DNA from: Bryoerythrophyllum caledonicum
Taxonomy: Eukaryota > Streptophyta > Bryopsida > Pottiales > Pottiaceae
Direction of reading: 5' to 3'
Length of the DNA stretch: 64,000 nt
Assembly: GCA_963971425.1 (NCBI GenBank)
Contig: OZ020515.1
Location: 15,206,291-15,270,290, forward strand
The notes under the pieces: generated by a model
Database searches by the model: none
The model's input: only the letters and a program-made list of their open reading frames with translations
Told to the model about the DNA's origin: nothing
Part shown: positions 11,926 to 58,881 of the stretch, piece by piece
Position numbering within the stretch: position 1 is the first letter of the stretch
Layout of the letters: every line of letters begins with the position of its first letter
Position numbers and translations under genes: made by a program

Positions 11926-14422
11926 TCAGCTTTCAAGGTCCATGCCGTCCACGAAATCCATGTCCCACTCGCCAGATCCATCGTCACTAGAAAAGCTATC
12001 CATGGATTGCTTGCTGCAAACCAAAAAAACCATATATCCATCCGGTCAAAGCTTCAAGATCAAACTAGATGATAAACCTGATTTCTATTTTAGATATATA
12101 GAAAATGATCGCTTGAGGGCAAACTTAAAACGAGACCCACTTAAAGCTTACCTCGCACATCGGGAGCTGAAGTAAAGCACTCGCTTTTGCTTTTTGTTGT
12201 AGAAAAAATAATTAAAGGACCATCTAAGGGGCACAGAAACGCATGCAACATTAACACGTTAAAGTGGATGCAGCACCGGGACTTCCCGGGAGGTTTCCCA
12301 CCCCAGTACTATGCCGGCCCAAAGGCGCTTAACTTCAGAGTTCTGATGGGATCTGGTGTAGTAGCCTTGGTATGACCGCATCCCAAACATAGTTTCCAAC
12401 ACTTTCCACAAGGTTGGTTATGCAACAACCCCCGTCCTCCACAATACCATAAAACGATGCAACCCAAGTCATATGCATCAAGCAACTCAACAACAGAATT
12501 ACAAAGACTACAATCACTTTAAGACTTTTCCAAATGTTTAAGCTCTATCACTCACATGCTGCCAGTGTCAGCAAAAGGATCTCCTTCAGCATCAGGGGAA
12601 TAGCTGTACACTTCACATTCCTCCAGATTCATGACCTGCGGGGAGGTGAAAATGTTACATTCCGAGGCGTAATACCAAACGAACCACATTGATCCGCGAA
12701 AGCAAACAATGAGAAGCGCACCTATATGATACATTCAAACAGAGAAGCTGAACAACAAATAGAGACGCAAGACGCGCTATTCCTTGGATCACATCATAAC
12801 AGGGAGACTTCAGGAGGCGTTCTGCTGACCTCATCAATGCCGTTCCAAATGCTGTCCATCAGCGTTGTTTCCTCCCCAACTTCATTAGACCAAATCTGCT
12901 ATTGAAACCCTGTTAGAATGAATCCACCTCCTAGTAGCTTGGAGACCCAGCATCTATCGCGTCAACTCCCCAGGGGCAGGCAACTCCGAGTACACCAACT
13001 ATCCAAACTTGCAAAAATCAGGATAGAACAAGACTTCGTAACACGACGATTAATAGCATGAGCTGCCAGTTACATATCTACCTTGGATGCCTCAACCAAT
13101 GATACGTCAATCTTTTGCTTTGCAGCAAGAACTCCATGTTCTTTCGAAAAGTGGTGAGGTCGCAACATACTGGTAAGTATATGGACATAAGAATATCACA
13201 ATATTAGATTAATCAACTTTCACCTACCCTTACTAGGTACAAACTGTTGGTCGACAGACTACATAGGAAGTAATAGGAAATGGAGAGACTTGAACTCTCA
13301 GCTCCTTCAGGAGCAACGGCTTCATACCGCTTGTCAACCATTGACACCACTTCCTAATTCCTTTCAATAAAGTGGGTTGCCGGCCTTGAAGACACAGGCA
13401 GTACCCAAGACAAGCTCATCTAGACTCGACACAAAGCCACAAGAACCTGAGATAGCGGGGAATCCCTCCGATGAGCGTAGAGAAGAGCACGCTACCAGAG
13501 GGGCACACACCGCCAGCATAGGGAAACACAAGCTTAAAAAACGCCTTTACCTGAAATCGTAGTCGGGATACATATGATTCAAGGTCAGAATCAGGTAGAT
13601 CAATGTCCTGCGACTGAACACAGACCCAGAAAGAGGTAAAGGTTCCCCAGTCAACATGTCAAACAAAAAGAGAGATACTACAGCAATAACCATTATATAA
13701 TACCTGATACAAACACCTCCCACATCCTGAGAACTTGAAGTCAGAATGACTTGAAGATAAACAGACTTTTAAGTACTGCATAGCGACTTGAAACAAAAAA
13801 AAACGACACAGTTCATAACATGTTAAGAAGAAAAATACCTCGCAGTGTTCGAGAGAGGTCCGACGGGAGAGGTGGACAGTTCCAAAGGCGAATACGCCAA
13901 CGAATCCACAACCTCCTGTTCCAAGCTCCGTGATAACTTCTTATCAACCCCTGCAAGCTTGCCTGTAAAGTCACATCCGCGATTAAAAACACTTCCAGAC
14001 TCCAAAAAGGCCAACTCTCCTCCCTCGCCCGCCAAATTCCAGCTGAACAAACCCTCACAGCTCAACGACAAAACCTTCTCACCAAAAAGGCATAACAAAC
14101 TCTCAAAGCTTATCTTAGAGCAGGAAAAACTCCAAACCTCACAGAAAAAAATATCTTCAAAAACTTACAAGAGTAAGCCTCCATCACGCCTTGAATCATG
14201 CACCCTCCGACATCGACATACGACAGAAACGTGTTTATTCTGCACCGTTAGGGTTTCATCCCGCTCATCAGCCCGTCCACCATCCAGCCCCAGATGGCAC
14301 GCAAAAGAACGGCAACAAAAATCAAACAAAGATCCCGACGAAAAAAGGATGAAACACAACGACGAGGACCAGGGATGAGGGATGGGGTACCGGGCCAGTG
14401 GAGTGTACTCGAGGAACTTCAT
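11926..14422 (-). CDS. MAF1: MAF1, repressor of RNA polymerase III transcription
   Basis: Nine minus-strand exons with continuous phase: 14391-14422, 14169-14239, 13839-13962, 13551-13613, 13082-13169, 12830-12895, 12556-12635, 12152-12223 and 11926-12013. The product is about 230 residues, the usual plant length. It starts MKFLEYTPLARINTF and has the A-box region EAYSCKLAGVDKKLS. The B/C boxes follow: TLIYLILTLNHMYPDYDF, then IWNGIDEVMNLEECEVYSYS, then WSFNYFFYNKK. It ends in an acidic Ser/Asp tail (SSDDGSGEWDMDF). MAF1 binds Pol III and blocks tRNA and 5S rRNA synthesis under stress, and phosphorylation normally controls it. The first coding exon is only 32 bp. I see no break in the gene. 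Confidence 0.95.
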
Positions 14423-15484
<1,062 letters not shown>

Positions 15485-26399: not shown

Positions 26400-26820
26400 C
26401 ATCCAAGTTCGTGATGCCGGCTCAATGTACAAACTCAACGTCATAATCATGCGGCAACAAAGCCCACATGGCGAGCTTGCCAGTAAGCTTGTTTGACTCC
26501 ATGAGCTACTACAAGGGTGATGGTCGATCATCTACGTAAAATGTTGTCCATACAAATAGGGCCAAAAATGAGCCATGGTCCAAATCGCGGCCAAGGCCTC
26601 CTCCTTTTAGGATAAATAGTTAGACTCCGCATTGTTGGTGCTCCTAGGAGCAAATGCCACAACGTATTTCCATCCCTCATCATCCTTCTCAATCAATATT
26701 GCCCCAAATCCCACAACACTTCGGTCTATGTGCAACTGAAAGGGTTGTGTAGGATTTAGACGCCACAACACAGGCACTGAACCGAGCTGCGATTGAAGCC
26801 AAATGGGAGAAACTTTCATA
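26400..26820 (-). pseudogene. Ty3/gypsy RNase H fragment
   Basis: A minus frame reads PTQPFQLHIDRSVVGFGAIL then YVVAFAPRSTNNAESNYLS, typical of the RT-linked RNase H start. After a stop and frame change it continues MESNKLTGKLAMWALLPHDY and AGITNLDVDGLS, the C-terminal part. The fragment is degenerate. It joins the RT fragment after a deletion. Confidence 0.8.
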
Positions 26821-28869: not shown

Positions 28870-29447
28870 GAACAATAAATTAGTGGCCACAAAGCGAAAC
28901 GAAACTATTCAAGTCAATGGCTCGACCGAACAAATAACAATGTTGGCCCTTATAGAGATCTGGTGCGGCAATGGTGCATGTCAAAAAGTCCATCTCATCA
29001 CCTGCTTCCTCTCATTTGTAGAGGGCTTATTATAAGTTTGGGAAGAAAAATCCCAAACCATGGCCGGATCGCGAGTCTTAAAGGCAAAAGACCCTGGGTA
29101 GCACATCAATGTAGAAATGCCCCTCCCTAGTGAAACCAACCGGTTCACCACCACCAATGATGGCTCATCATCGTTGGTACCCTTCGTGAAAACACGGTGG
29201 TCGTCCAAGAAGTCATCGACATCACAGCGCACGCGCCATTGCACTTGAGCAAGTGCAAAGGTGAGTGTCGCCGATGATGCCATGTTGGTCCACATCCAAC
29301 GTAGCCGATGGGCGTAAGAGCCCAACGCCGCGGCATTAACAAAAATGGGGGGACCAAGAAGGTGTGGAATGTATCCCTTATCTTCACGCATCTTTGTCCG
29401 TGTATCCCCCAATCGCGGTACATTCTCAAAAAGTTCCCCAGTGGCGT
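28870..29447 (-). pseudogene. C5 cytosine methyltransferase domain, C-terminal half (motifs VI-X)
   Basis: The minus frame reads ELFENVPRLGDTR (motif VI, FENV) at about 29425 and ALGSYAHRLRWMWTNMA (motif VIII, RxR) at about 29300. A conserved segment PGSFAFKTRDPAMVWDFSS follows. After a frame change near 29000 comes YLFGRAIDLNSF, matching motif X (GR/NA). AHRxRxxWxN is close to the DNMT3/DRM type. The first residues of the open frame before ATGELF come from the inserted LTR-like element at 29448. Confidence 0.85.
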
Positions 29448-31412
29448 TGTAGAAGAAAATTTGTCTTGTAAATATAAATAAATCCAAGATAATTTCCTAG
29501 TGGGGGGTCTTAGGGAGGCTTAGTTGAGCCTATCGTTTTAATAACTAAGGTCACATGTTAGATAGGAATGTCTTTTGTTTAACAAATTGCTTAAGATAAC
29601 GAATTATCCATTATTGGTGTGTTAATTAACCCTTGTGCTTTTCCCGTGAGTGCACTCTACACTCTTACAGTCAATTAGTGGTTAAACATGCATTTGTGAT
29701 TATGTGGGATCCTCTCACTAAAGGACACAAAAAGTCTTTAAGTATTTTAGTGAGTGATACGATTTGTCTTGTTTATTATCAATGCATCATAACCGATTCC
29801 ATTACCAACTCTAATTGCTAATTCATTTTTATTAGAATTGACAACTATGCTAGCTATTCTATTTTGCCATGAGCTTTTGGGTTCGGAATTCTATCCTGGC
29901 TTCCCACTTTTGCTCCACTGGTCCGCCTTCAGTTAATCATTTCATCATACCTGCAAAATTTTCCATTCAAAGAAACACCGGACAACAATTATATCTCACT
30001 CTCGGTATAATTGTTGTTATTGATAGCCCTTTGCTATCAAATCTATGTGTTCTCTCACTAATACTTCCTCATGGCAAATGGTCTTGTTTTATGTCGTCAA
30101 TCTCATGACACATACAAGCAATATCTTTTTCTTTAGTTTGACTTAATGGCCACTTGGTCAAACTTTAATATAAAAGGCATCTAGCCCAACTTATGACAAC
30201 ATGGTCATTTAATATAAATTCACAAGACTCTCTCGGCCCACTCTTGGCTCTTTAGTCTTATTCTTCCATCTTCTCCAAATTAATGCTCTTTCTTTTAGCA
30301 ATTTTTTTCTTCTCAATTTACCTTCACTACTCGTCATGCTTCACCCACATGATCTTTTAATGCTTCAAGTCATACTACAATGACATAAATTGCTTTTGGG
30401 AAAATTATCATTGTCTTATAATTTAATGACTAAGGGTGATCAATCCTTATTTCACACATTATAAACGTAATTTCACTCGGCAATTCTATTAGACAAATAG
30501 TATAATTGTATGCATTTACCCCACCCGCTATCCACTCATCTCAGTTTTAGACTTGGGGGAATTACAACAGTCATACAAGACTATTTGTAATTATCACTTT
30601 ATGGTTTTTATAATTCGTCACATCACTCGGTGTTTACCATCGGAAAGGATTTGACAAATGGTTATATAATAAAAGGTCTCGATTACTACAGTGCTTCACA
30701 GCTTCTCCATTTATGATATTCAATTTAGTTATAGATACTGGTAGTATATTATAGCATTCTCAGTGTAGTGATTGAGAATGGACTACACCATCGATTAATT
30801 GTATTTGGATACACCCATTCATTCTTGAGCCATTAATTGGGTATCATTTTCACAAATCAGCATTTTGTGAAAATAGGCTCAATCAACGACTATTGGTCTT
30901 CTGCAATCAACCATCAAAATCCCAAGGATTCCGACTTCATCATCCTCTAACCTCCAATCTACAACTCTGATGTAATGTAGACCACTGGTAATGCAGAAAT
31001 TACACCAACAGATTTGATATCATAAAATTAGGCTTGTATTCCATAAAATTTTGAGAGTTACCATTACCATCCTAGGACACACATTCAAAGTGAGAAAAAT
31101 GTGGTGTGTTCTAAAGTTGGATTCAATTCCTTTATATCCCTCTTGTGACTATTGGTTTCTCAACCTAGACCAATGATCTTCTCTCTCAACTTCCATAACT
31201 ACTCATGTGTCTTACTCTTGATAACTTCCCCCTGATAACTTCCTTTACTTACTTACTTAACCGCCTATTAGTCTTTTTTACACTACTCCAAAAAATTAGG
31301 GTAAATGTTCACACTGTTTCATACTATTTGTAAACTAGTGCTACTTAAGATCCCTATTCACACTGTAAAGACAAATAGTGTTCAAAAAGTAAAATTTATG
31401 CACTTCAGGCGT
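29443..31412. mobile_element. LTR-like insertion (TG...CA, 1960 bp) with 5-bp target duplication GGCGT
   Basis: GGCGT at 29443-29447 and 31408-31412 bracket a 1960-bp AT-rich segment that starts TGTAGAAG and ends CACTTCA. It separates methyltransferase motifs IV and VI. It has no coding sequence that I recognise. A long solo LTR or non-autonomous LTR element fits best. Confidence 0.65.
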
Positions 31413-31800
31413 CGATTACTAAGAAATCCACCACTAGATGGGCCTCAACAAATACGCAAAGAGACTTGGCCGTGAATGGCCTTGGCAAGGCCATCTAGCA
31501 ATCACCTAATCCATGTGACCTAACTGGCAAAGATCATCCTTACCGATCGACATCACATCACGTGGCAACTTGCCAAAACACCCTCGAATTCCAGAAGGTG
31601 ATTACAGCTCCAGAAGAGGCTGAATGTGATGGTAAACGGCACGGTTGGCTGCAAAGCCACTATCCACGTGAACTTACCTACGTATCTTGAGCTCGACCTC
31701 TAATACAACCGCGAGCCCTGTACTCATATCCGCAAATAGCTCCACGAGGGTAATACCCTCATCTGGTCGTCGCCACGGAGTAGTAAAAGCCAACATAGGA
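31413..31800 (-). pseudogene. C5 cytosine methyltransferase domain, N-terminal half (motifs I-IV)
   Basis: The minus frame reads GITLVELFADMSTGLAVVLE (motif I, AdoMet binding; the usual Gly after FA is Asp here) near 31712-31755. Then come YVHVDSG-like sequence (motif II), LGCFGKLPRDV and HMD.VIARWPCQGHS. The catalytic PCQ is at 31473-31493, with Cys present. Stops occur at three or more points. The domain continues at 29447 after the LTR-like insertion. Confidence 0.85.
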
Positions 31801-40965: not shown

Positions 40966-41149
40966 ATTTATTTGAATATGCTACACCCTTTCTCTACCTC
41001 TAAAAATTAGAGTACAAGGAGTTAATATCAAAATCAACATGATGATATAAAATTTAGACCTTGTGTAATGCAAATCTTTGATACCAAGTGAAGTCAAAGT
41101 CTGTTGATCCACTCAATGCAGGAATGAAAATGAACCATTTCTTCAACTT

Positions 41150-41560
41150 TAAAGGAGCGAGAGAACTTTAAAGGAATGAGGGAACTTTAGAGGAGCAATG
41201 GAACTTTAAAGGAGCGAGGGAACCTTAAAGGAGCAAGGGAATTATAACGGAAAGTGCAGGCGGCAACACTTTAAATCGACGTTTTCTACGAGCAAGAAAA
41301 CATTAAAGTTTCCAGGGGACTTCAAAGGAGAGATGAAACTTTAAAGGATCTATGGAACTTTAAAGGAGCGATGGAACTTTAAAGGAGCGATGGAACTTTA
41401 AAGGAGCGAGAGAACTTTAAAGTAGCGACGGAACTTTAAAGGAGATATGGAACTTTAAAGGAGCGAGAGAACTTTAAAGTAGCGAGGGAACTTTAAAGGA
41501 GCGATGGAACTTTAAAGGAGCGAGGGAACTTTAAAGGAGCGAGGGAGCTTTAAAGGAGGT
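41150..41560 (+). repeat. ~19-bp minisatellite (GAACTTTAAAGGAGCGAKG)n
   Basis: Roughly 18 degenerate copies of a 19-bp unit. Each contains the palindrome CTTTAAAG, and an unrelated ~100-bp interruption lies at about 41245-41330. The array ends directly before the GC-rich leader of the EDR4-like gene. Confidence 0.9.
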
Positions 41561-53714: not shown

Positions 53715-54073
53715 GGAGGAATACGTAAGCTACGATAAAAAGGTTGTAGAAAATTGCTACATAACAGTTTAGGGATCAAGAACCGTTTTGCAAGGATCAG
53801 GTGGTTAGGTTGTTATGACTGTTCTGATTCTCCTTGATCCCCCTTGAACGCTACTTAAGGTCATGTAGGGGCAGGTTCTATGGCGACTGATCTGTAGATG
53901 ATTGTGTGAATGCTACAATGCATGAAGCCATGCACAAGCATGCACCATGCGTCTAAGCCTGTCTGTATGTAGTTGAAGCTGTATGAAATATATACTTTGT
54001 TACGTAGCAACTCTGTGTGTATATGACTCAAATCATGTTCTTTTTGTGTCACGACTTAGTCTGTAGTTTTAAC
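53715..54073 (+). repeat. 5' LTR of the copia element
   Basis: Begins GGAGGAATACGTAAGCTACG and ends GTCTGTAGTTTTAAC. About 97% identical to 58523-58881. The ends do not show the usual TG...CA on both copies. TGGAGG...AACA would fit for this copy only. Confidence 0.9.
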
Positions 54074-54092
54074 AGGTTATGGGCCCACGCTT
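54074..54092 (+). promoter_or_regulatory. Primer-binding site complementary to the anticodon arm of initiator tRNA-Met
   Basis: AGGTTATGGGCCCAC directly follows the 5' LTR. Its core GGTTATGGGCCCAC is the reverse complement of GTGGGCCCAUAACC, the anticodon stem-loop of plant initiator tRNA-Met (from memory). This matches half-tRNA priming known from Drosophila copia, not 3'-end priming. Confidence 0.7.
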
Positions 54093-54250
54093 CTAACAGT
54101 GACTAAGCCGATAATAAAATTTGGTCATAGCTGATAGAGTCAACACGTGGCTATCATCGTTACTTACTCGCTGAACACAAATGGACACGGGCGTTCCAAT
54201 GACTGACCTTGGCGCCAGTCGTACACACACACCAGTGCTCGAAGAGATAG

Positions 54251-55087
54251 ATGATCGCACTCAGACACAAGCTTCAGTCCGAGTCCCGATTAGGCAAGAG
54301 TCTGAGTCTGACTACACACGTTGAGAAGTTGACAGGCGATAACTACGGAGTCTGGAAGTTCCAGATGACCGTGATGTTTCGTGCACGAAAGTTAATGGGT
54401 ATCGTCGATGGTGCTCAGTCAAGAGAGATTCACTATGATGACGTAGAGTGGGTCGATAAAGACGCTGTCTGCCAATCCATCATAATTTCCGCAGTAGACT
54501 CCAAGCTCATGAGGAGGTTAATGACATGCAGATGTGCCAACCAGATGTGGCGCAGATTGAGCACTGTTCATGAGCAAAATGCAACTGAGAACATTCAACT
54601 GTTGCAGCAACAGTTTTTTGAACTTAGGATGAAACCGAATGTTGATGTGGTTGATCACATTAGCATGGTGGAACAATTGGCGAATCAACTAACTGACCTG
54701 GGGGAACCCGTAAGTGAACAAGCAGTGATTTGCAAGGTCATTTGCTCTTTACCGCCTAGTTTCAGATATCTTACAGCAGCTTGGGACAACGTCCCATGTG
54801 ACCAACAGACCATAGAGTCATTAACGTTGAGGTTGTTGAAGGAAGAAGCTCGTAATCGCTTGCAGAGCGATGTTGACGAAGAAGGCGAGAAAGCGTTTTT
54901 CTCAAAAGGAAGCTCGTCTGGGGCTGGCCAGAAGGAAGCTACACCAGAAGAAAGAAAGAAGCGAGCTGCCAAGATCGTTGAGTTGAAAAAGAAGACAAAA
55001 TGCAACAAATGCGGAAGAAAGGGACATTGGGAGAAAGATGCAGTGTCCGGAAAACAAGAAGGAGGGACACGCTCCAAGAGTCGATGA
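54251..55087 (+). pseudogene. Copia gag
   Basis: UBN2/gag-type sequence: VEKLTGDNYGVWKFQM, LSTVHEQNATENIQLLQQQF, then a zinc knuckle CNKCGRKGHWEKD whose last Cys is lost by a frameshift at about 55038 (the +1 frame continues CPENKKEG). An upstream ATG at 54181 gives a plausible native start in another frame, so a second frameshift near 54300 is likely. Confidence 0.85.
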
Positions 55088-58000
55088 CAAGCAGCCAATA
55101 GGAAAGGCAAAATCAAACAGTGAAGCTCATGTTGTATCCAATGAGGACGCTGAAGACATCAACAGTGCAACATTCATGGTACGTACAAATGAGAGCAAGA
55201 ACGACAATGCATGGTACATGGATGGGGGAGCAACGGAGCATATGACTAATCACCTGGAGTGGTTTGAGACGTTTGAGGAGATTGCCGAAGGGCGTTGGCC
55301 GGTCATGATAGCAGACAACAAGCGGATGTGGGTCTGAGGCAGTGGAAGTATTTGCGTACAGTGTTTGATCAATGAGCGGTGGCAGAATCGGAAGCTGGAC
55401 AGAGTGCTCTTTGTCCCTGAACTCTGTAAAAATCTCTTCTCTGTAGGCCAGGCTGCTGATAAAGGATATGTAACGACATATACTAAACGTGCTTGCTATT
55501 TAGCTACAGCGAGCGGAAACGTGGTGTTATCAAGGACCCGTATGACAAAGTTGTACAAGCTTTTGATGCGAGTGGTGGCTCCTAGCAGCCAAGCAAATCT
55601 GGTGGCAAATGTAAACCCGAGCCATGAGGAGGAGCCTCATCAGACAAAACGCTTGGCGATCTGGCATCAAAGGTTTGGACATGTAAATAGCGCCATGATT
55701 GTGAATATGCACAAACAGGGAACAGTCGAAGGGTTAGAGTTGGAAAGTCATGCGTTGCCTCAACGTCCTTGCGAAGGGTGTGCAATGGGGAAGAATAAAC
55801 GAAGACCTTTTCCAAAGGCTAGAAGTACACCATGAGCTGATAAACTTGGTATTTTCCTACACACAGATGTGTGGCCCGATGCATCAACTTTCTGTTGGCG
55901 GAGCCAGGTACTTTGTGTTGTTTAAAGATGACTGTTCTGGTTATCGGATTGTATATTCCATCAAGGAAAAGTCTGACGCACTAGAATGCTTTAAGGCTCT
56001 TTGCCCGCTGATCTCCGTACAGACTGGAAATCAAGTCCAGAAAATTCGCAGTGATCGAGGCGGGGAGTATTTGAGCCAAGAATTCAACGCCTATCTTACC
56101 TCACAAAACATTATTCACGACGTCACCAGCCCTAATACTCCTGAGCAAAATGGGATAGCCGAACGAGAGAACCGTACACTGGTTGAATGTGTACGAGCGA
56201 TGATACACGCGAAAGGGCTGCACTTGAAATGGTGGGGGGAAGCAATCCAGACAGCAGTGTATCTACTAAACAGATCAGGCTCACGTGCGCGCTCATACAA
56301 GACTCCATACGAGCTATGGACCGGAAAAAGACCTGCTGTGAAGCATTTGCGTGTATTTGGGTGCATGGCCTATGTACACGTACCGAAAGCGCACAGAAAG
56401 AAGTTGGACTCGAAAAGCATAAAAGTTGTGTTCGTCGGCTATTGTAGCAACACCAAGGCCTATCGATTGTGGGACCTCAAGCGACGGCGTATCATAGTAA
56501 GTCGAGATGTGATCTTTGACGAGGTTGCTACGCCAAGCTCAACCACAGACACAGCCACCATAGACACAGTTTCGGGATTGTTCTCCGTACAAGTAGACAG
56601 AGTTGCGTCCACAAGCGCAAATTCACGCCCAACATGTACAAGGGAACAACAACCTCACGATGAGATGCCACTTCACGATGAGATGCCAGCTGGCAGAAGC
56701 CACGAAGATGCGGAAGATCCAGTGCATGAAAGTAACAGTGATCATGAAGTAAGCGGCGACGAAGGACAAGATCACCAATCGCCACGACCAGTACGCATGC
56801 GAGGGGCCCCTGTTCCCCTAACCAATTTCTACGTACCACGTGCAGGTGCTGGATTGACGCATGCACTTGCCATTACCTCTTCAGATATTCCAAATGATCC
56901 GGAGAGTTACCACGAAGCTATACGGAGCCCTCAAGCAGCTCGGTGGAAGGATGCCATGCAAGCAGAATACGACTCGCTTATTAAAGCTAGTACTTGGCGG
57001 TTAGTCACTTTGCCACCAGGACGTAAACCAGTGAAGTGTAAATGGATTTTTCGTATAAAAACGAATGCTGATGGCTCCATCTCAAAGTTCAAAGCCAGAT
57101 TGGTAGCGCAAGGCTGCACGCAGACAAAAGGGGTGGACTACGACCGGACGTTTAGTCCAGTTGTGAAGTATGACGCTGTACACACAGTGCTTGGTGTTGT
57201 TGCTCAACAGGCCATGCATTTGACACAATTCGATATTCAGACAGCCTTTCTAAATGGACTCATTGACACGGTGTTGTACATGCTGCAACCTCCTGGGTTC
57301 GAAGTTGAAGGCCCAGATGGAGCAATGTTGGTTTGTCTCGTCCTCAAGAGTCTATACAAATTTAAGCAGTCCAACCGAATTTGGAATCAAACGTTCAACG
57401 AATTCTTGATCGAGTTTGGACTTGAGCCTATTGAAGCCGATCCATGTGTCTACATTTCGAAGCAGCCACCGCTACTCATCGTTACGCTTTTTGTTGATGA
57501 TGGCCTAGCAGGCTGTGTTGAGGAAAAGCGTTTGAATGCTCTCATCAGTTATATGGAGCGACGATTTGCGATCACTCAAAACTCAGCAGATCTATACGTG
57601 GGGCTCCATATACATCAAGCTAAGGATCGACACGTTATATACGTGAACCAGTCTGTCTACTTGCATTGTATCATGAATCAGTTTGGTTTTGAAGGATGCA
57701 AGACTGTGACGACTCCTGCAGATCCGAACACTCAACTGGACGATGTTGCTGACCCTCCAGATGAGGTAACGTATGCGTATTCAGCTGCTGTTGGGTGTCT
57801 TTTATTCGCTCAAACTCTTACCCTGCCAGACATTAGTTTTGCAGTGAGCAAAGTGGCTCAATTCTCTGCCAACCCTCAGCAACCACATTTTGAAGCGGTC
57901 AACAGAATATTCCGCTATTTAGCTGGTACACTTGGGCTATCTCTCTGCTACGATGGACGAGTGAGCTCAAATCTCCTTACCGCATTTGCCGATGCCGACT

Positions 58001-58449
58001 ATGCGGGCGACGTCACTGATAGAAAGAGTCGCTCGGGCAGTTTGCTTCTGTAGAATAAAGCGCCCGTGTCATGGAGCAGCCGGAAACAAGCATGTGTCGC
58101 AACTTCGACAACTGAAGCGGAGTATGTAGCTGCAAGTTCAACGACAAAGGAGGTGATCTGGTTTCATAGACTCCTTGGCAACCTCGGTTTCACCCAGATC
58201 GCCCCTACTCCTCTCTTCTCTGATAATCAGAGTGCTATAAGGCTGGTTCTCAACCCCGAATTCCATCGACGAACGAAGCACATTGATGTTGTATACCATT
58301 TCATTCGGGAGCATCAACAGCGTGGGGACATCGCAATATCTTACACGCCCACTGCCGAACAGCTTGCAGACATTTTTACAAAGGCATTACCAGCCGATCG
58401 TTTTTGTCTTCTTCGAGGTTACTTGGGGCTGCGTATCTGCCCTTCTTAA
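55088..58449 (+). pseudogene. Copia pol (protease, integrase, reverse transcriptase, RNase H)
   Basis: Protease: WYMDGGATEHMTNHLEWF (D-G-G in place of D-S-G), then a stop at 55335. GAG-pre-integrase: WHQRFGHVN and CEGCAMGKNKRRPF, stop near 55833. The integrase core has SDRGGEYLSQEF and NGIAERENRTLVE; the first Asp region (HTDV) is in another frame because of an indel near 55860. RT: KCKWIFRIKTNADGSISKFK, FDIQTAFLNG and LFVDDGLAG. A stop at 58051-58053 separates RNase H (ATSTTEAEYVAASSTTKEV, DNQSAIRLVLNPEFHRRTKH). The protein ends at 58449. Confidence 0.92.
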
Positions 58450-58522
58450 GCACCGTAGCTTTTTTTCTCCTCCACCTCCACTAATGCTTCAGACTGCAAG
58501 CATTAGCATCTAGCAGTCTGAG

Positions 58523-58881
58523 GGAGGAATACGTAAGCTACGATAAAAAGGTTGTAGAAAATTGCTACATAATAGTTTAGGGATCAAGAACCGTTTTGCA
58601 ACGATCACGTGGTTAGGTTGTTATGACTGTTCTGATTCTCCTTGATCCCCCTTGAACACTACTTAAGGTCATGTAGGGACAAGTTCTATGGCAACTGATC
58701 TGTAGGTGATTGTGTGAATGCTACAATGCATGAAGCCATGCACAAGCACGCACCATGCGTCCAAGCCTGTCTGTATGTAGTTGAAGCTGTATGAAATATA
58801 TACTTTGTTATGTAGCAACTCTGTGTGTATATGACTCAAATCATGTTCTTTTTGTGTCACGACTTAGTCTGTAGTTTTAAC
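58523..58881 (+). repeat. 3' LTR of the copia element
   Basis: Same 359-bp length as the 5' LTR with about 11 substitutions, 8 of them G/A or C/T transitions. Ends GTAGTTTTAAC at 58881. Confidence 0.9.

Follow-up and report, generated by a model that had tools for sequence, protein, structure and literature searches.

The window considered here is a stretch of 64,000 nucleotides of Bryoerythrophyllum caledonicum (Bryopsida, Pottiaceae; assembly GCA_963971425.1, contig OZ020515.1, positions 15,206,291 to 15,270,290 of the forward strand). On its minus strand, at about 36843-26333, it carries what is left of a Ty3/Gypsy-type retrotransposon, three later insertions included, as delimited by nucleotide comparison (blastn) with two relatives from the same genome, L011 and L012. 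The remnant is a dead copy of an element family in which the gag-protease frame ends in a cytosine-5 methyltransferase domain that, judged by profile and predicted fold, is closest to Dnmt3. The identity and anatomy of this family can be regarded as practically certain; for the reading as a whole, which also includes the roles proposed below, a probability of about 0.5 is given.

The remaining pieces are collinear with L011 at 73-82.5% nucleotide identity (blastn), and the 3' part beyond the RNase H region is lost. The remnant begins with a 5' terminal repeat, here called A, at 36843-36477 (79% identical to the second A repeat of L011, blastn), which together with the leader forms an alignment block with L011 at 36840-36223. 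The broken leader and gag region follows at 36044-33403 (78% to L011 1243-3889), with a CCHC-like knuckle recognized by eye in the frame 34534-33989; the gag pieces share 66-69% of their amino acids with L011, and Pfam gave no gag match in the window pieces. The protease-like stretch at 32438-32145 (73% amino acid identity to L011) belongs to a type that in the relatives is retroviral aspartic, at scores below the Pfam cut-off (PF13650, 0.0012-0.0024 in L011 and L010), and the alignment with L011 continues from the protease region into the methyltransferase (32576-31470 and 31465-31408) and, further on, from the methyltransferase into the beginning of pol (29447-28423). The reverse transcriptase (RT) is represented by its N-terminal part at 27271-26793 (82% identical to L011 in nucleotides; RVT_1 matches at 9.4e-4, short of the curated cut-off), after which about 450 nucleotides are deleted near 26790, and the RNase H region at 26788-26333 (RT_RNaseH 3.4e-21; 81% to L011) closes the remnant. 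No integrase was found in the window copy, the L011 sequence beyond RNase H being without counterpart in the compared stretch.

The methyltransferase, which an earlier note on this DNA had read from five motifs, lies between the protease-like stretch and the RT, as that note placed it. With a profile built from 15 relatives of the same genome, the window copy being left out, three stretches match in order on the minus strand: an N-terminal part (31766-31404, profile 2-137, 121.8 bits), running from a damaged motif I to motif IV, WPCQGHS, exactly at 31493-31473; a middle part (29445-28984, profile 136-289, 189.7 bits) with motif VI FENVP and motif VIII AHRLRW; and, in another frame, a C-terminal part (29014-28865, profile 278-327, 28.4 bits) with the motif X-like FGRAIDL. 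The next best stretch of the window reaches 0.8 bits, the reversed window 0.9 and three shuffles at most 1.6. The two main pieces are, moreover, 63-70% identical to L011 (tblastn). Pfam gave no match on the window's own N-terminal, C-terminal and far C-terminal pieces, so that the relatives were needed for detection, and searches of PDB sequences with these pieces returned nothing or two chance matches. Scans of viral contigs with the window's C-terminal piece and RT found no relative; a motif-pattern search of the same contigs gave one match, L001, whose motifs suggest an ordinary C5 methyltransferase and which serves as an outgroup only.

Three insertions, whose borders were set by eye and whose class names are presumptive, interrupt the remnant. 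The second (31407-29448, 1960 bp), which splits the methyltransferase and was already described as a 1.96-kb insertion, proved real, with TG...CA ends and a 5-bp duplication, ACGCC, on each flank; it is probably a solo long terminal repeat (LTR). The third (28420-27272, 1149 bp) appears piggyBac-like, with inverted ends and TTAA on each flank. The first (33402-32568) is, by eye, a piece resembling a long interspersed nuclear element (LINE), flanked on each side by a 13-bp duplication, TGTGACGTTGCAG. Its frame at 33307-32825 is related to another at 39551-39123 (77% identical DNA); both show a PD...E...K pattern and resemble, by eye, the restriction-type endonuclease end of a LINE, and Pfam gave nothing over cut-off on either. 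As previously stated, the copy is dead, because of stops and frame breaks, which affect the methyltransferase itself, a motif I reading ELFADMSTGL where eight lineage-B rows have ELFAGIGTGL (GIG to DMS), the three insertions, the RT deletion and the failure to find an integrase.

What the intact element looks like emerges from its relatives in the 437-Mb assembly (894 contigs). A scan with PF00145 found 1053 candidates. The 123 that were scored and listed all exceed the cut-off, so that the genome holds at least 123 matches, and at least 122 apart from L002. The latter (G000:C14:16014858-16018817), the strongest match among those scored, was set aside as bacterial-looking by eye and not a retroelement: it is a GC-rich patch inside a 22-Mb contig, with a full C5 methyltransferase frame (370 amino acids) beside, by eye, a gene like the transposases of insertion sequences, and may reflect contamination, misassembly or transfer. 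Among the 123 scored matches, by a count made by eye, 15 lie free of stops in open frames of 1353-1371 amino acids and two more in frames of 1517 and 1710. The match to the methyltransferase family that had been asked of the domain is found in relatives, with E-values of 6.6e-14 (L010), 3.3e-12 (L011), 6.4e-12 (L012) and 1.3e-13 (L014), above the curated cut-off. Two lineages, which share 54% of 327 residues in the methyltransferase domain, can be distinguished: lineage A, with L010, L016 and others, and lineage B, to which best matches assign L011, L012, L015, L018-L027 and the window copy.

The supposition that relatives might be intact is borne out by L010, the frames of which are unbroken. 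Its first frame (1371 amino acids) contains a CCHC knuckle, the protease-like stretch and the methyltransferase, and is separated by a single stop from 1041 amino acids, in phase with it, that carry RT, RNase H, H2C2, integrase and PHD finger, the Pfam domains (including RVT_1, RT_RNaseH, H2C2 and rve) standing in Ty3/Gypsy order. The frames of L016 have the same lengths, except that the first is 11 amino acids shorter; L011 has a first frame of 1353 amino acids and a broken second one, of which a 692-amino-acid piece carries RNase H, integrase and PHD finger. The rve integrase is present in L010, L011 and L014, and no PHD finger was seen by Pfam in the fused frame of L014. The arrangement recurs across the genome, so that neither of the two outcomes that the earlier note named as refuting it came about: among the 121 scored lineage-A RT copies, 74 are preceded on their own strand, at no more than 3 kb, by a scored PF00145 match, at a spacing of 1290-1332 nucleotides in 71 of these pairs (1089, 1356 and 1771 in the other three), and the domain is present in all ten RT loci that were cut out, i.e. 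the ten best matches. The 47 other RT copies are no evidence of absence, because most PF00145 candidates were not scored.

Thus, the description of the domain as captured inside pol holds only in part: it does stand between protease and RT, but as the last domain of the gag-protease frame, followed by a UAG and then by the RT-integrase frame, and not within pol proper. In the relatives, the first frame ends in TAG followed by CAACCA (lineage A) or CAATCA (lineage B), and TAG CARYYA is kept at the homologous site in 23 of 25 rows, including that of the window (TAG CAATCA, 28583-28575); L003 gave no row. The two exceptions are L017 (G000:C3), which has CAG, and L014 (G000:C1), in which the site is deleted; in both, the stop between the frames is gone and longer open frames result. 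UAG CARYYA is the readthrough context of tobacco mosaic virus, and by this analogy the stop is probably leaky; a literature search joining CARYYA, readthrough and retrotransposon found no paper.

As to the kind of enzyme, the METHYLTRANSFERASE domain has the motif order I-IV-VI-VIII-X, unrearranged, and the catalytic PC of motif IV, the ENV of motif VI and other catalytic-motif residues are invariant in 15 aligned copies, which were chosen for their lack of stops and span both lineages; the window copy keeps PC and ENV. A comparison of the 15-row profile with the sequences in PDB brought up 57 distinct chains at E of at most 1, with DNMT3A best (1.2e-16), then 3C and 3B, followed by M.HhaI (3e-9) and M.HaeIII (3e-8), more weakly by DRM (4.4e-8 to 5.6e-7) and by Dnmt2-type chains (1.1e-4 and weaker); there were no DNMT1 or chromomethylase chains among the 57. 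An AlphaFold model of the L011 domain, of modest quality (mean predicted local distance difference test score 56.3, predicted template modelling score 0.63), was placed by Foldseek with DNMT3A and DNMT3B on top among the matches listed (best E 6.1e-11, template modelling scores 0.54/0.61). In a small tree of motifs I-VIII, of the sort that the earlier note had called for, DNMT3A and the elements are separated from DNMT1, HhaI, one phage and one bacterial enzyme (99.8/100), a placement that is not fixed once DRM sequences are added on motifs I-V (see below). The C-terminal ERAMGF...LLGQA of the elements also resembles the ERVFGF...LLGRS of DNMT3A and DNMT3B, from which the domain differs by an insertion between motifs I and IV and by PCQ in place of PCN, and because of the latter it is named Dnmt3-type, not Dnmt3. 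Plant DRM2, besides being the weaker profile match, is rearranged, with motifs VI-X before I-V, unlike the element domain.

The domain is under purifying selection. Between L010 and L016, it differs by 0.065 non-synonymous substitutions per site (dN) and 1.62 synonymous ones (dS), and among lineage-A pairs the domain has a median dN/dS of 0.056 (21 pairs) and the RT one of 0.028 (3 pairs). These estimates come from stop-free copies only, so they lean to intact copies, and close pairs are young; between the two lineages synonymous sites are mostly saturated.

In L010, L016, L011 and further copies, the repeats are laid out as A-coding-B-A-B and not as the ordinary LTR-coding-LTR. Repeat A is identical within L010 (372 nucleotides) and within L016 (367 nucleotides), and such identity in some copies therefore indicates recent insertion. 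Ends were studied in 13 copies (these three and ten more), and both the 5' and the B end were found in 11, of which ten show a 4-bp duplication beside TGT...ACA ends; the eleventh (L042 and L043, G000:C9) continues into a third A repeat and its end was not reached. In the other two copies, the sequence retrieved stopped short of the 3' end. The inner B-A junction consists of two bases, GC in L010, L016, L011 and six of seven further copies and AC in the seventh. One copy (L044 and L045, G000:C2:5983100-5995800, at 5.99 M of C2) is A-coding-B alone, with AGCT on each side. The element ends and duplications are of integrase type and the repeat layout is that of DIRS elements, from which the family is set apart by its rve integrase and 4-bp duplications, DIRS elements having a tyrosine recombinase and no target duplication. 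Insertion may thus have proceeded from joined-end DNA cut at GACA/GC/TGTC.

Retroelements that carry a cytosine methyltransferase have been described in dinoflagellates and in a single streptophyte alga (de Mendoza et al. 2018, PMC5890265), so the precedent that the earlier note named is indeed in print; some DNMT3 members are also described as embedded in retrotransposons of streptophytes and dinoflagellates in PMC12344493. The closest system, KnitGypsy-Dnmt3 of Klebsormidium nitens, compared here by description only, shares with the present family the Gypsy domain set, an unrearranged Dnmt3-type domain, which there is intronless, a DIRS-like repeat layout and purifying selection (PMC5890265). 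It is described, on the other hand, as carrying the domain within the Pol polyprotein frame, whereas here the domain closes the gag-protease frame before the UAG; the available text makes no mention of a PHD finger, a leaky stop, a 4-bp duplication or a two-base junction, all described or, in the case of the leaky stop, proposed here; and K. nitens has, according to that study, fewer copies than Symbiodinium (PMC5890265), the present genome holding at least 122 matches. SymbioDIRS-Dnmt3 of Symbiodinium has a Dnmt3-type domain in a retroelement with split repeats too, but with a tyrosine recombinase in the place of the DDE integrase found here (PMC5890265). A literature search, of partial coverage and thin for subscription papers and preprints, named no further streptophyte with such elements. 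With the precedent published, the element joins a rare kind that was already known and adds new anatomical detail to it; absence from print is not claimed.

How the enzyme serves the element is inferred from its conservation and from the published activity of the domains of other elements. If the UAG is leaky, each Gag-protease molecule would come with the methyltransferase, and RT-integrase would arise through readthrough alone; the enzyme would then enter the particle and methylate the new complementary DNA (cDNA) of the element before insertion, probably at CG, while the PHD finger behind the integrase may read histone tails and steer insertion. That self-methylation of the cDNA is the main selected role is judged slightly short of an even chance. 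In its favour, SymbioDIRS Dnmt3 domains methylate CG in yeast, and the functional proposals already made for such elements include hiding of the cDNA, protection against editing, effects on chromatin at the new site and restraint (PMC5890265). Several observations weigh against the reading, on the side of function and on that of enzyme type. The K. nitens Gypsy domain was inactive in yeast, a result that its authors call inconclusive (PMC5890265). The CpG observed/expected ratio is 0.50 in L010, 0.79 in L011, 0.78 in L016, 0.71 in the window's element pieces and 0.72 in the whole window, values that differ among copies, and therefore leave no consistent footprint of self-methylation. In lineage B, the median dN/dS is 0.295 for the domain (43 of 45 pairs, dS >0.02) versus 0.177 for the RT (10 pairs). 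The window copy, like the 15 aligned ones, has PCQ as its catalytic motif in place of Dnmt3's PCN, scores against the NCBIfam dcm model are 45.5 and 60.3 bits (short of the 100.65 that it requires), and a small tree of motifs I-V with two DRM sequences included does not fix the elements' place.

Among the alternatives, the one that survives best, at perhaps one chance in five, is that the domain quickly silences insertions and so spares the host and, with it, the element, i.e. restraint rather than hiding. Many copies, several with unbroken frames, would suit it, and it has been proposed for the published elements, the K. nitens copies bearing CHG and CHH methylation and being described as silent (PMC5890265); against it, plant hosts silence elements without such help. 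It is distinctly unlikely that the target is RNA, either the packaged genome or the transfer RNA primer: this has been raised for LINE-borne domains (PMC5890265) and PCQ occurs in other C5 enzymes too, but by profile and by fold the domain comes closest to DNMT3A and DNMT3B, the match to Dnmt2 being far weaker (1.1e-4). Slightly less probable still is a role in the particle as a structural or nucleic-acid-binding component for which catalysis is no longer needed, as might be thought of a domain whose K. nitens counterpart has no demonstrated activity (PMC5890265); in a set of copies chosen for lack of stops, PC and ENV are nevertheless invariant across two lineages as divergent as these. Chance resemblance, with a few motifs read into noise and no true methyltransferase, would account for why the window's own pieces drew a blank in Pfam and PDB, and is rejected by the ordered profile matches and the tblastn identity to L011.

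Returning to self-methylation and its setting, a more detailed scheme can be advanced, although it must be regarded as rather unlikely in its entirety. The family would insert by its DDE integrase from joined-end, circle-like DNA made of A-coding-B units with the mostly-GC two-base junction between ...GACA and TGTC..., insertion at that point producing the 4-bp duplications; with a methylation writer made at the level of Gag, ahead of the leaky UAG, and a PHD finger that reads histones following the integrase, each particle would mark its own DNA and choose its chromatin.

Elsewhere, the window holds a copia element at 53715-58881, with RVT_2 and integrase between 359-bp repeats (53715-54073 and 58523-58881) that are 96.9% identical, a single 5S ribosomal RNA gene on the minus strand (12265-12383, 107.9 bits), a perfect (TAGA)51 array (15280-15484) and a tandem array with a 19-bp unit repeated about 22 times (41145-41558). 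A frame of 1075 amino acids at 44021-47248 matches the EDR4 zinc ribbon, a plant family, at 26 bits where the cut-off is 27, which together with the published precedent speaks for a streptophyte host.

With two divergent lineages and several unbroken frames in one 437-Mb genome, the association between a methyltransferase and a retroelement is seen to be one that can last and succeed. Furthermore, the anatomy of the family, with the enzyme before a probably leaky stop, the PHD finger behind the integrase and split repeats with integrase-type ends, makes the idea of self-methylation testable on defined parts.

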